Shown piece by piece: positions 24,484 through 28,024 of a DNA stretch of 64,000 bases. Made by a program: the position numbers and the translations under genes. The notes under the pieces were generated by a model, which was not told where the DNA came from, ran no database searches, and was given only the letters and a program-made list of their open reading frames with translations. This stretch comes from Nostoc sp. NMS2. GTDB lineage: Bacteria; Cyanobacteriota; Cyanobacteriia; Cyanobacteriales; Nostocaceae. The DNA lies in NCBI RefSeq assembly GCF_017115105.1, contig NZ_JABXKH010000137.1, forward strand, positions 1 through 64,000, written 5' to 3'. The stretch's first letter is position 1. The number at the start of each line of letters is the position of its first letter.

Positions 24484-25767
24484 TTAGGACTGAACTGAGC
24501 GCAGCCGACGCTCTAGAAAGCGGCGTTCGCTGTTATTTGTTACCAGCGCGAGGGCTAGGGCGTAGCTCTGTGCGGCTTCTTGGGAGGCTCCAATACGGCG
24601 CAGCAAATCGGCACGGGTGGCGTGAAATAGATGGTAGCCATTAAGTTGAGGGGTAAGCCCATCAATGAGTTCGAGCGCAGTCTGAGGACTCTCGATCATT
24701 GAGATCGCCACTGCCCGGTTCAGCGACACAATCGGCGAGGGTTGCAAGCTCTCAAGCAAATCGTAGAGGCGGACAATTTGTAACCAGTCCGTTTCTTCTG
24801 CCTGTGCCGCCTGACAATGTAGTGCCGCGTTAGCGAAGCTCACCGAAGGTATCGCAGCTTGCACTCCAAACGGGCCAGTTCCGGTTCGCAGTGCCTCTTC
24901 AACAAGCGGCAACGCCTCAGCAATCTGCTGTTGGTTCCAGCGATGGCGATCCTGATCTTCGAGCAACACCAGATCGCCCGCCTCATCCAAACGGGCATCG
25001 CGTCGGGAGTCGTGCAGCAACATCAGCGCAACGAGGGCAGTCACTTCTGAAGGCGGTTGCCGTGCCATCAACATCCTCACGAGACGACCCAGCCGAATCG
25101 CTTCTGTACAGAGGTCGGCTCTCATCATCGTCTCGCCCCTAGTCGCCGCGTAGCCCTCGTTGAAAATCAGATAGATCACTGTTAGTACTGCGTCTACCCG
25201 CACAGACAGATCGGTCGTGTCTGGCACTTTATAGGGAATACCTGCATCCCGAATTTTGCGCTTGGCACGCACCAGCCGTTGCGCCATTGTTGCCGTGGGT
25301 ACAAGAAACGCCCGCGCAATTTCATCCGTCTCAAGTCCGCCCAGCATCCGCAGCGTCAAAGCAACCTGCGCCTCAATTGCCAGTGCTGGGTGGCAGCAAG
25401 TAAAGATCAGCCGGAGCCGATCGTCTGGAATTTCATCTGTATCATAAGTTGGCTCCTCTTGGGTTGGGATTAACCCGCAGGCGGCGTACCATTCCAGCTT
25501 TTCCGTGAGCCGTGTCCGCCGTCGGAGGCGATCGATAGCTTTGTATCGGGCTGTTTTGATCAGCCACGCACGGGGAAGATCGGGCACGCCGCAAGACTGC
25601 CACTGATTCGCGGCAGCGATAAAGGCTTCCTGTACCGCTTCTTCAGCCACGTCGAAATCTCTCACTAACCGGATGAGGATGGCGACGATTCGCCCCCACT
25701 CAGCTTTGTAAACGGAAGCGAGTGCTTGGTTTACGTCTGTTTTTGCGTTTGGGATTATACCTGACAT
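24484..25767 (-). CDS. ECF42-type RNA polymerase sigma factor with C-terminal TPR-like extension
   Basis: Sigma-70 family protein of 427 residues. Region 2 lies at about 20-85 ([39 protein letters not shown]) and region 4 at about 135-190 ([20 protein letters not shown]). The remaining 230 residues form a helical extension with the conserved [19 protein letters not shown] motif and late TPR-like helices. This architecture, and the divergent YCII/DGPF gene, identify the ECF42 group, in which the extension rather than an anti-sigma factor is thought to control activity (family knowledge). Codon use and base composition are visibly GC-richer than the neighbours, suggesting horizontal acquisition. 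Its start lies 187 bp from the YCII start, and the space carries two copies of the predicted target promoter. Confidence 0.9.
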
Positions 25768-25785
25768 AAAAAATTTTTGGTGAGG

Positions 25786-25812
25786 TGTCGATTTGAGTCA
25801 GCACCGTTCGAC
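25786..25812 (+). promoter_or_regulatory. Predicted ECF42 promoter, upstream copy
   Basis: TGTCGA at 25786-25791, a 17-bp spacer, then CGAC at 25809-25812. This matches the TGTCGA / CGA-type motif reported for ECF42 sigma factors in front of DGPF genes. The oriented motif points toward the YCII gene. A GGGAGG ribosome-binding-like motif follows at about 25833, though no reading frame starts there. Confidence 0.6.
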
Positions 25813-25880
25813 TTAACTTAGAAGGGAAACAAGGGAGGTATACCCCAATCGTACTAAACGATCAAAATTTTTGGCTCCCG

Positions 25881-25907
25881 TGTCGATTTGAGTCAGCACC
25901 GTTCGAT
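25881..25907 (+). promoter_or_regulatory. Predicted ECF42 promoter, gene-proximal copy
   Basis: TGTCGA at 25881-25886, again a 17-bp spacer, then CGAT at 25904-25907. It lies 47 bp before the ATG of the YCII gene, which is preceded by a strong AGGAGG at 25941-25946, so this copy is the better placed promoter. Confidence 0.65.
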
Positions 25908-25953
25908 TTACTAAAGAAGGGAAGCAACAACGGGAAATAAAGGAGGCAACTCG

Positions 25954-26313
25954 ATGAAATATTTGCTGCTGATTTACCTGGAGGAAAATGCCCTGAGCCA
26001 AACCGAGCGGGAAGACTGTTATGTAGAATCCGCGCAACTGGCACAACAACTCAACTCGAAGGGGCAGTATCTGGCGACCGCCCCTCTGCACTCTGTCGCA
26101 ACTGCAACCAGTGTTCGGGTGCGCGACGGCAAATCGCTAGTGACTGATGGACCGTTCGCAGAAACCCGCGAACAATTGGGCGGTTTTTTTCTGATTAATG
26201 CTCAGGATCTCGATGAAGCGATCGCGATCGCTGCCCAGATTCCAGCAGTACAAGTTGGCACCGTCGAAATTCGACCTGTGATTGAAGTTGCGGGTTTGCC
26301 AGAGAATTCGTAA
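25954..26313 (+). CDS. YCII/DGPF-domain protein
   Basis: Small protein of 119 residues with the ferredoxin-like YCII fold. It shows MKYLLLIYLEE at the start, SVATATSVRVRDGKSLVTDG then PFAETREQLGGFF (variant of the DGPF signature), and a C-terminal strand VGTVEIRPV. DGPF proteins are the usual genetic partners of ECF42 sigma factors and are thought to be enzymes or small-molecule handlers of unknown reaction. The gene is the first of four plus-strand genes divergent from the sigma gene and carries the best ribosome-binding site of the set. Confidence 0.9.
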   Translation: MKYLLLIYLEENALSQTEREDCYVESAQLAQQLNSKGQYLATAPLHSVATATSVRVRDGKSLVTDGPFAETREQLGGFFLINAQDLDEAIAIAAQIPAVQVGTVEIRPVIEVAGLPENS

Positions 26314-26342
26314 CTGTACTCAACCTCAACCCAAAAGGAGAA

Positions 26343-26792
26343 ATGACGATGACAACCAAAAGCACGATTACAGAAGAAGAAGTTCAGATTCGCCAACTGA
26401 TTGCGGAGCAACAACGTGCCATCTGCACCAAGGATGTTGACCAAATTATGTCCCGCTATGCCACCGAGGTCATTGTCTTCGATGTTAAACCTCCCTTCCA
26501 AACCCAAGGGAAAGATGCTTGGGGTCAAGTTTGGTCAGAGTGTTTGCCTTATTTCCCGGACACCTTTGAGATAGAAACACGAGACCTCAAGATTACCGTC
26601 AGTGAAGACTTAGCGGTTGCACACTGGCTATTTCGCTTTACAGGAACTCAAGACCATCCAGCAATGCAGACGTGGATGCGCGTCACCTCTGTCTGCCAGA
26701 AAAATCAAGGCGAATGGCAGATATCACACGAACACCTCTCAGTTCCATTTGATCCAGAGACAAATCATGCTGTATTGACGCTAAACCCATAG
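26343..26792 (+). CDS. SnoaL/NTF2-like protein (YybH type)
   Basis: Protein of 149 residues with an NTF2/SnoaL-like cone fold pattern: a long first helix (VQIRQLIAEQQRAICTKDVD), then MSRYATEVIVFDVKPPF and the closing strand WQISHEHLSVPFD. Members are often small ketosteroid-isomerase-like enzymes or binding proteins; the substrate is unknown. It begins 29 bp after the YCII gene with an AAAGGAG ribosome-binding site and probably shares its transcript. Two ATGs occur six bases apart (26343 and 26349); either could be the start. Confidence 0.82.
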   Translation: MTMTTKSTITEEEVQIRQLIAEQQRAICTKDVDQIMSRYATEVIVFDVKPPFQTQGKDAWGQVWSECLPYFPDTFEIETRDLKITVSEDLAVAHWLFRFTGTQDHPAMQTWMRVTSVCQKNQGEWQISHEHLSVPFDPETNHAVLTLNP

Positions 26793-26822
26793 CCCAACTA
26801 AAGTCACCTCTTGCAACATCCA

Positions 26823-27233
26823 ATGAAAATCAATTCTTATCTCATGTTCAACGGCAACTGTGACGTAGCGTTCAAGTTCTATGAACACTGTCTTGGTGGC
26901 AAAATTGTTATGATGCTGACCCACAGAGATGCACCCTCAGCCGAGCATGTACCTGCTGGATGGCATGACAAAATCATGCACGTCTGCCTCGATCTGGGCG
27001 ATCGCCTCTTGATGGGGTCTGACAGTCCGCCTGGGTATTTTGAAACACCCCAGGGCTTCTACGTGCAAATCAGCGTTGACGAGCCAGTCGAGGCAGAACG
27101 CATCTTTCATGCACTAGCAGAAAATGGAAAAGTGAAGATGCCGATCGAGCAAACCTTCTGGTCTGTCCGCTTTGGCATGTTGGTCGATCAATTCGGTATT
27201 CCGTGGATAGTCAACTGCCAGAAGACTGCTTGA
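26823..27233 (+). CDS. PhnB-like VOC-superfamily protein
   Basis: Protein of 136 residues of the PhnB/glyoxalase-like vicinal oxygen chelate superfamily. It has INSYLMFNGNCDVAFKFYEH at the start, then KIMHVCLDLGDRLLMGSD and WSVRFGMLVDQFGIPWIVN at the end. Many members lack catalysis and bind small molecules. ATG at 26823 is taken as the start; an in-frame TTG at 26811 would add four residues but the family normally begins at this ATG. It is 30 bp downstream of the SnoaL-like gene, in the same orientation, and shares the island's higher GC content. Confidence 0.85.
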   Translation: MKINSYLMFNGNCDVAFKFYEHCLGGKIVMMLTHRDAPSAEHVPAGWHDKIMHVCLDLGDRLLMGSDSPPGYFETPQGFYVQISVDEPVEAERIFHALAENGKVKMPIEQTFWSVRFGMLVDQFGIPWIVNCQKTA

Positions 27234-27332
27234 ATCGTCATTTTGGGGAGCGCTTACGGGTGTCTCCCTTAAAACTCAAACCTCAACCTTTTCGCCGATC
27301 CTTCACTGTACAATGATTCAAAAGGAGAATTT

Positions 27333-27740
27333 ATGAGTACTCAAATTTTCGTCAATCTACCAGTCAAAAACCTTAATCAATCGATCCAGTTCTTTACTCA
27401 ACTCGGCTTTGAGTTTAATCCTCAATTCACTGACGAAACTGCCACTTGTATGATTGTGTCCGAAAACATCTTCGTGATGCTTTTGACGCATGAGAAGTTT
27501 AAAACGTTTACTCCCAAAGAAATTTGTGATGCTACAAAAAGCACAGAAGTCCTTGTGTGTTTATCTTCTGATAGCCGAGAACAAGTCGATGAAATGGTTC
27601 GCCTTGCTGTCGCCGCCGGTGGAACAACCTATAATGAACCCCAAGATCACGGTTTTATGTATGGACATGGATTTGCTGACTTAGATGGCCACATTTGGGA
27701 AATTATCTATATGGAGCCAAACGCAATAAATCAAGGTTGA
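27333..27740 (+). CDS. Glyoxalase/bleomycin-resistance-like VOC protein
   Basis: Protein of 135 residues with the two beta-alpha-beta-beta-beta modules of the VOC fold: IFVNLPVKNLNQSIQFFTQL at the start and the C-terminal FADLDGHIWEIIYM that carries a typical metal-ligand glutamate. An AAAAGGAG ribosome-binding site lies just upstream. It follows the PhnB-like gene by about 100 bp and may be the last member of the ECF42-associated operon, although its base composition is closer to the host average. Substrate unknown. Confidence 0.85.
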   Translation: MSTQIFVNLPVKNLNQSIQFFTQLGFEFNPQFTDETATCMIVSENIFVMLLTHEKFKTFTPKEICDATKSTEVLVCLSSDSREQVDEMVRLAVAAGGTTYNEPQDHGFMYGHGFADLDGHIWEIIYMEPNAINQG

Positions 27741-27796
27741 AAATGCGATGTTTAAGGAATTAACTCTTAAATTGGTCTGTACTAAACCCAGCTTTT

Positions 27797-28024
27797 TTAT
27801 GCCATCCACTCAGTCCACTGTGGGGCATCTGTCACCAGTTGAGCAAACTTATCAGGGTAAGCATCCTCAAACTCCAGCATCACGCTGCAACGCTCATCAC
27901 TCGTTAGTGTACTGAGTAATTCTTTAACTGACTCCACCCCATATTTAACCTGTTCAATCGCCAGCCGAGCCTAATATTTAACTCTATCCCACCAAGAATC
28001 ACTGAGATTTTCATCTGTGTTCAT
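27797..28024 (-). pseudogene. Small gene interrupted by an in-frame TAG
   Basis: Read from ATG at 28024, 17 codons (MNTDENLSDSWWDRVKY) are followed by TAG and then 57 more codons in the same frame, including VKYGVESVKELLSTLTSDER and ending in DAPQWTEWMA before TAA. One nonsense change would explain the break. The start overlaps the stop of the repeat-protein relic (ATGA at 28021-28024), indicating former translational coupling. The 3' half recurs, further decayed, at 23755-23870. No function is recognised; the hydrophilic helical sequence suggests a small soluble accessory protein. Confidence 0.6.

Follow-up and report, generated by a model that had tools for sequence, protein, structure and literature searches.

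The YCII-SnoaL-VOC-VOC genes in the window (the whole 64-kb stretch of DNA that was analysed) are probably driven by a tandem ECF42 promoter, both complete copies of which appear to have been kept by selection; promoter activity and the identity of the sigma factor are inferred in this reading. Because most of the related cyanobacteria examined keep the doubling, the doubled promoter is probably a functional feature rather than a leftover. A remnant, or a promoter used solely by the sigma gene, is an unlikely explanation for the upstream copy, because two or three copies are kept by all five YCII genes whose sigma gene is clearly missing or broken. The tandem YCII promoter is a variant of known things, namely ECF42 regulation and tandem promoters.

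The doubled motif and its flanking genes

The initial annotation described two copies of TGTCGA-N17-CGA, 95 bp apart and with the same 17-bp spacer, between a divergent ECF42-type sigma factor gene and a YCII gene. Both copies (P1 and P2) were found where they had been placed (Table 1). The sequence is TGTCGATTTGAGTCAGCACCGTTCGA both times (26/26 bases identical, 95 bp from start to start), both copies are directed at the YCII gene, and Pfam domains match both flanking genes. The claim that the same sequence follows both copies stood in part: there is a 67-nt repeat, wider than the motif, in each unit of which the motif is preceded by an AT-tract and followed by a leader rich in A/G, but the stretch TTTGAGTCAGCACC sits within the 17-bp spacer and not behind the motif. 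The pattern TGTCGA-N15..19-CGA is not rare in itself, as it was found twice in the 64 kb against 0.97 expected and at least twice in 22 of 100 shuffles; when the 186-bp gap was shuffled 20,000 times with dinucleotides preserved, two sites were obtained in no case and at least one in 14.

Table 1 Features of the sigma-YCII locus (positions in the window)
Feature	Positions	Strand	Remarks
ECF42-type sigma factor gene, 427 aa	24484..25767	-	Sigma70_r2, Sigma70_r4_2 and DUF6596 above Pfam cut-offs; divergent from YCII operon
Intergenic gap, 186 bp	25768-25953		between sigma gene (-) and YCII gene (+)
Repeat unit copy 1, 67 nt	25766..25832	+	81% identical to unit copy 2
AT-tract before P1, UP-element-like	25766..25778	+	touches sigma start codon
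Promoter copy 1 (P1), predicted	25786..25811	+	-35 TGTCGA 25786-25791, -10 CGA 25809-25811; also in relatives
GGAGG after P1, relic-like Shine-Dalgarno	25834..25838	+	no gene behind it
Inter-copy block AATCGTACT	25847..25855	.	family consensus TCRATYGTACT, from alignment of inter-copy stretches
Repeat unit copy 2, 67 nt	25861..25927	+	81% identical to unit copy 1
AT-tract before P2	25864..25872	+	sequence
Promoter copy 2 (P2), predicted	25881..25906	+	-35 TGTCGA 25881-25886, -10 CGA 25904-25906
GGAGG, Shine-Dalgarno of YCII	25942..25946	+	ends leader after P2, then YCII start
YCII-domain protein, 119 aa	25954..26313	+	PF03795, E 2.9e-23
SnoaL-like protein	26343..26792	+	gene 2 of presumed operon; PF13474
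VOC/glyoxalase-superfamily protein	26811..27233	+	PF06983, PF00903; TTG start as listed, in-frame ATG after it
VOC/glyoxalase-superfamily protein	27333..27740	+	PF00903

Sigma factors of the ECF42 group have regions 2 and 4 only, a TPR-type C-terminal extension of about 200 aa, a YCII-related neighbour and no nearby anti-sigma gene. The Pfam scan of the sigma protein gave regions 2 and 4 (Sigma70_r2, E 2.2e-9; Sigma70_r4_2, E 1.7e-8) and a long C-terminal extension with DUF6596 at residues 190-292 (E 2.7e-36); no TPR model was reported in the 427-aa protein at E 0.001. The adjoining gene, divergent and 186 bp off, encodes the YCII protein, and no anti-sigma match was obtained when the sigma factor and five nearby proteins were scanned against Pfam.

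Copy number among relatives and controls

Homologues of the sigma factor were searched for in 388 genomes of the class (E 1e-60 or better), and ECF42 homologues were found in 90 genomes. They split into three groups by identity, 73-90% (clade A), about 50-57% (clade B) and 35-41% (clade C). The upstream regions compared were those of clade A and of the greater part of clades B and C (30 loci from the 388 genomes; six lower-scoring matches were left out), and additional named loci from other genomes came from the best 80 of 591 matches. Among the matches listed, clade A comprised 39 distinct loci with a sigma start, 35 of which had a divergent YCII match (that of L027 is truncated), and two or three strict copies were present in all 35; the four loci without an adjacent YCII gene had 1, 2, 1 and 1 copies. 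Conservation of the -35 and -10 columns in clade-A leaders arises by construction and was not used as evidence. The window's own genome (G000) holds one further close sigma paralogue (79% identity) with its own YCII locus, the leader of which has a pair 82 bp apart whose spacers differ from each other and from those of the window. The leader of L133 (Nostoc sp. MG11) is the same as that of G498, a genome of the window's family.

Extra pairs away from the scored sigma matches were found by motif search in 32 clade-A genomes, and motif searches in three families added 31 distinct loci from the window's own family. In total, 79 loci were collected. When YCII (at least 100 matched residues, with a frameshift in L247) and sigma were both present, 53 loci had two copies, six had three and one had a single copy; when YCII was present and sigma was missing, broken or out of view, six had two copies and one had three; when YCII was non-adjacent or broken, six had two copies and six had one. 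L104 (a sigma fragment without start) and the duplicates L053, L134, L169, L222 and L239 were dropped or merged. Since 40 of the 79 loci came from the motif search itself, the main count is carried by YCII protein searches (E 1e-45 or better), which are independent of the motif.

The YCII search of 192 family genomes gave 35 genes in 33 genomes, and the gene of G397 (L261; YCII 72%, with a co-directional 52% sigma) is of another type, as are the class matches at 72% or less. Two or more copies precede 32 of the 34 family genes of the window's type, with one copy in G487 and none visible in G521. The search of the 388 class genomes gave 42 genes with at least 77% identity, clearly set off from the remainder (72% or less); immediately upstream of 39 of them lie two or three strict copies, and the other three are not first genes. 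When single- and double-copy leaders are set side by side across relatives, as the initial annotation proposed, the doubled form is the norm in the cyanobacterial clade: in the union of both searches (five genes common), two or three intact copies lie upstream of 66 of the 71 YCII genes, a count that, given the shared ancestry of the loci, does not represent 71 independent events. A stop falls inside the YCII match, at codon 110 or later, in G207:C190 (L214), G227 and G282.

The five remaining genes comprise one with a single copy, one with none before the contig end and three inside longer operons. In L257 (G487), YCII and the first copy are intact, and two later stretches retain the -10 half and not the -35; in L260 (G521), no copy occurs within the 129 bp to the contig end. 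As to the other three, a promoter pair 83 bp apart lies about 1.3 kb upstream of YCII in L263 (G040:C83), L264 (G285:C282) runs into a contig edge, and in L038/L265 (G251) one strict copy is accompanied by one whose first base is altered, with the operon's YCII 2.3 kb downstream. In L263, L264 and L265, YCII does not lead the operon: what looks like the coding sequence of a different protein extends right up to it. The pair of L234, 1 kb from YCII and behind an insert, is counted among the 66. A contrast of copy number within 12 YCII-less loci (six two-copy, six one-copy) was dropped, because the YCII gene of G251 is displaced and not lost; G285 (L031/L264) may resemble G251, with YCII further down the operon. 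At least L051, L220 and L244 look like deletions that removed a promoter too. L032, L052 and L216 have one degenerate copy and two that are still intact; the locus L216 lies at a contig edge.

As controls, 148 other ECF42 loci (43 of clade B, 28 of clade C and 77 from the best 80 of the 591 matches) were scored for TGTCG[AG]-N17-CG[AT] within 400 bp upstream, and 120 of them have a YCII homologue. The assignment of the motif to the ECF42 type in the initial annotation agreed with these loci: both window copies fit TGTCGA / CG[AT]C with a 17-bp gap, and 88 of the 120 carry one motif, with none in 28 and two in four. A motif of the TGTCGA / CG[AT]C type was reportedly published for the ECF42 group by Liu et al. 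in 2018. In the four two-motif controls, all of clade B, the second site has the TGTCGG form and lies 133-220 bp further up, perhaps inside the upstream coding sequence; two TGTCGA sites within 400 bp upstream were found in none of the 120 controls (clades B and C and part of the best 80 of 591 matches). Among the best 80 of the 591 matches, the 59 loci of other phyla with a YCII homologue had one motif in 38 cases, none in 21 and two in no case, and YCII is mostly upstream of sigma on the same strand there. A single copy is also present in each of L135 and L137, which are closely related loci from outside the cyanobacteria where YCII is divergent. The record of L137 is titled Bordetella parapertussis (MAG) and groups with Acidobacteriota and cyanobacteria; its name seems doubtful.

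A tree built from 71 sigma proteins, with modest support (9 of 68 inner branches starred), shows two copies throughout the cyanobacterial clade; a minimum of seven changes in copy number was counted on this tree, and six tips have three copies. First and last spacers resemble each other slightly more within a locus than between loci (0.78 vs 0.72; 0/5000 permutations), a likeness that blends homogenisation with shared ancestry, and they are identical in L001, L037 and L236. The array would probably have originated when a single sigma-YCII leader unit was duplicated in tandem, with the duplicate keeping a decaying Shine-Dalgarno sequence.

Role of the upstream copy

Each copy would provide an AT-tract, a TGTCGA -35, a 17-bp spacer and a CGAC-type -10, and the divergent ECF42 sigma factor, once active, would load holoenzyme at both sites. 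Activation would probably proceed via the C-terminal extension, as proposed for the ECF42 group; according to the part of PMC8999054 available, the extension is proposed to sense a partner protein, perhaps YCII. The separation of 95 bp appears too large for mutual occlusion, so that the simplest outcome would be more initiation per active sigma, and transcripts from P1 would have a leader about 95 nt longer. In the accessible part of PMC8830795, start sites 95 bp apart fall in the range without occlusion and with possible collision. As far as that source and PMC11339919 were available, tandem promoters give sub-additive output through collision of RNAPs, and the stronger response suggested in the initial annotation is therefore not assured; by analogy, the pair would probably raise transcription per active sigma, but less than twofold. 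For the Sinorhizobium RpoE10 promoter of SMc01149, the mapped start lies 12 nt downstream of the C in CGTC (PMC6180224, Table 1 as accessible). Transferred from the RpoE10 promoters, this distance would place start sites near 25821 (P1) and 25916 (P2).

A run of six or more A/T occupies the place of an UP element in 63 of 72 first copies and 72 of 72 last copies, compared with 13.8% of background 20-mers, and the AT-tract is also present in the single-copy clades (B, 24/26; C, 23/26). GGAGG occurs within 50 nt after the motif in 29 of 79 non-last copies vs 56 of 67 last copies. The sigma gene is clearly missing or broken, and YCII kept, in L214, L218, L219, L225 and L228, all of which belong to the YCII-found sets, and two or three copies are present in 5/5: L214 and L225 have two and L219 three, with no sigma gene beside YCII, and L218 has two and a 56-residue sigma remnant. 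Sigma is missing, broken or not visible in 14 loci overall, and at least two copies are present in 11 of these; in the three single-copy loci (L220, L244 and L245), YCII or most of it is lost too, L245 having lost sigma and retained a 40-residue YCII match. Since the upstream copy is kept without sigma, has an AT-tract placed as an UP element and stands near a decaying ribosome-binding sequence, it appears to work for YCII.

YCII operons or remnants without an adjoining sigma match (L213, L214, L219 and L225) keep two or three ECF42 promoters, which implies control in trans by a sigma factor elsewhere in the genome. Inserts separate the copies by 305-374 bp in L237, L241 and L254, with both motifs intact; the DNA inserted there and in L050 is repeat-like or hairpin, and neither motif is damaged.

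A threshold or noise effect of the pair is possible. That the array serves chiefly to set a threshold or to lower noise, either because sites compete for scarce sigma or because RNAPs that started at P1 run into RNAP at P2, seems rather unlikely. What looks conserved is that two or more copies stay intact, not where a particular one lies, and work on closely spaced tandem promoters points the same way in the part of PMC11339919 available; the additive reading, however, covers the same facts.

It was also considered whether P1 is the own promoter of the divergent sigma gene, read from a near-symmetric element, and P2 that of YCII. In most loci the sigma start is 16-31 bp away from the first copy, the reverse strand of which reads AGTCGA-N17-TCGACA, one base off. 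Between the divergent genes of L136 and L170, the single motif forms a perfect palindrome (TGTCGA..TCGACA), as would be expected of a bidirectional ECF42 promoter. However, none of the 72 first copies and none of the 72 last copies has the TCGACA needed to complete a reverse -35, and 67 of 72 in each set have TCGACT; copies are kept in the five loci with sigma clearly missing or broken, and in L214, L219 and L225 the DNA without sigma match starts just left of the AT-tract of P1. These observations make this arrangement unlikely.

The initial annotation had offered a remnant as one reading of the upstream copy, and P1 as an inactive, neutral remnant of a recent duplication would agree with the identity of the window copies (26/26), the 81% repeat and the single intact copy before the intact YCII of L257. 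The three copies of G334, from the same genus as the window, are near-perfect 96-bp repeats and show that units do duplicate. Doubling is nevertheless the norm (66/71), pairs span the cyanobacterial clade of the sigma tree down to 73% sigma identity with diverged spacers, and motifs persist while the Shine-Dalgarno beside non-last copies decays, so that a remnant is disfavoured and must be regarded as very unlikely. It is highly improbable that the repeated leader acts as RNA, with a regulatory structure borne by the longer P1 transcript: the leader stretch behind the motif is repeated as well, but the leader (25821-25956) folds no better than shuffles (z 0.37), and neither Rfam matches in 25000-27000 nor terminator-like sites in 25700-27800 were found.

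Beyond a working tandem promoter driving the YCII operon, it is tentatively suggested, with considerable doubt, that copy number is the selected trait, such that two or more identical sigma-specific promoters are needed and form a tunable array that gains units (from two to three, on several occasions) and homogenises them. If so, the number of sites competing for sigma would fix the output or the activation threshold. ECF42 is a widespread sigma group, and these loci form a natural series for asking why bacteria keep identical tandem promoters, with copy numbers of one, two or three, distances of 81 to 374 bp between copies, and the sigma gene adjacent or not; single-copy controls from other ECF42 groups are present in some of the same genomes.

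Known systems and leader features

The ECF42 and YCII systems compared, as described in the accessible parts of the sources, are Sven_0747/4377/7131 of Streptomyces venezuelae, ECF-10 of Pseudomonas putida and RpoE10 of Sinorhizobium meliloti. The window shares with them Sigma70_r2 and r4_2, a long extension at the C-terminus (DUF6596), an adjacent YCII gene and the promoter form TGTCG[AG]-N17-CG[AT]; glyoxalase-like genes are among the targets of RpoE10, as VOC genes would be here. The Sinorhizobium promoters with mapped starts, TGTCGG-N17-CGTC, have the geometry of the window's (PMC6180224, Table 1 as accessible). What sets the present arrangement apart from those systems is the divergent orientation of sigma and YCII and the presence of two or three copies of the YCII promoter. 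No description of the signal sensed was found in the ECF42 literature examined, as far as its text was available, and no earlier description of a conserved ECF42 tandem promoter was found in the literature surveyed, which lay mostly outside subscription journals and did not include two primary ECF42 papers. Like natural tandem promoters (the E. coli sets and kps PR1-1/2/3, as far as described in the available text), the copies are non-overlapping and face one direction, and the 95-bp geometry fits the E. coli sets with predicted start sites >35 bp apart (PMC8830795, in part). Unlike these, the window's copies are near-identical repeats, apparently served by one alternative sigma factor, and their number varies between relatives.

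The spacing from copy to copy falls at 81-85 or 94-97 bp in 59 of 79 cases, near 8 and 9 helical turns, and the distance from P2 to the YCII start is stepwise as well (49-54, 59-61 and 69-74). The leader lengths step as if a purine-rich sub-repeat of about 11 nt had been gained or lost. Helical phasing of the copies is not claimed, as gain or loss of such a sub-repeat fits the spacing classes equally, and it is not favoured because the YCII leader length itself shifts in similar steps.

The inter-copy block TCRATYGTACT (minus strand TAC[AG]AT) was considered as the -10 of the sigma gene and rejected, as it shows no decay where sigma is lost: RATYGTAC is present in 43 of 61 loci with sigma vs 8 of 11 without a complete sigma (Fisher p 1.0). 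The block was also considered as a possible operator: a 17-base version of it, searched for in 10 genomes, was restricted to leaders in G000 and G105 and occurred also or only elsewhere in the other eight. A small upstream ORF in the inter-copy unit is visible by eye in some relatives, but the window's copy has no ATG.

A near-identical single ECF42-like motif, TGTCGATTTTGTGTTGCGC[TC]ATTCGA, was observed in three genomes (L223 of G066, L224 of G015 and G258:C11:508147-508172). The gene that follows it in L223 and L224 encodes a glutathione S-transferase and may be another target.
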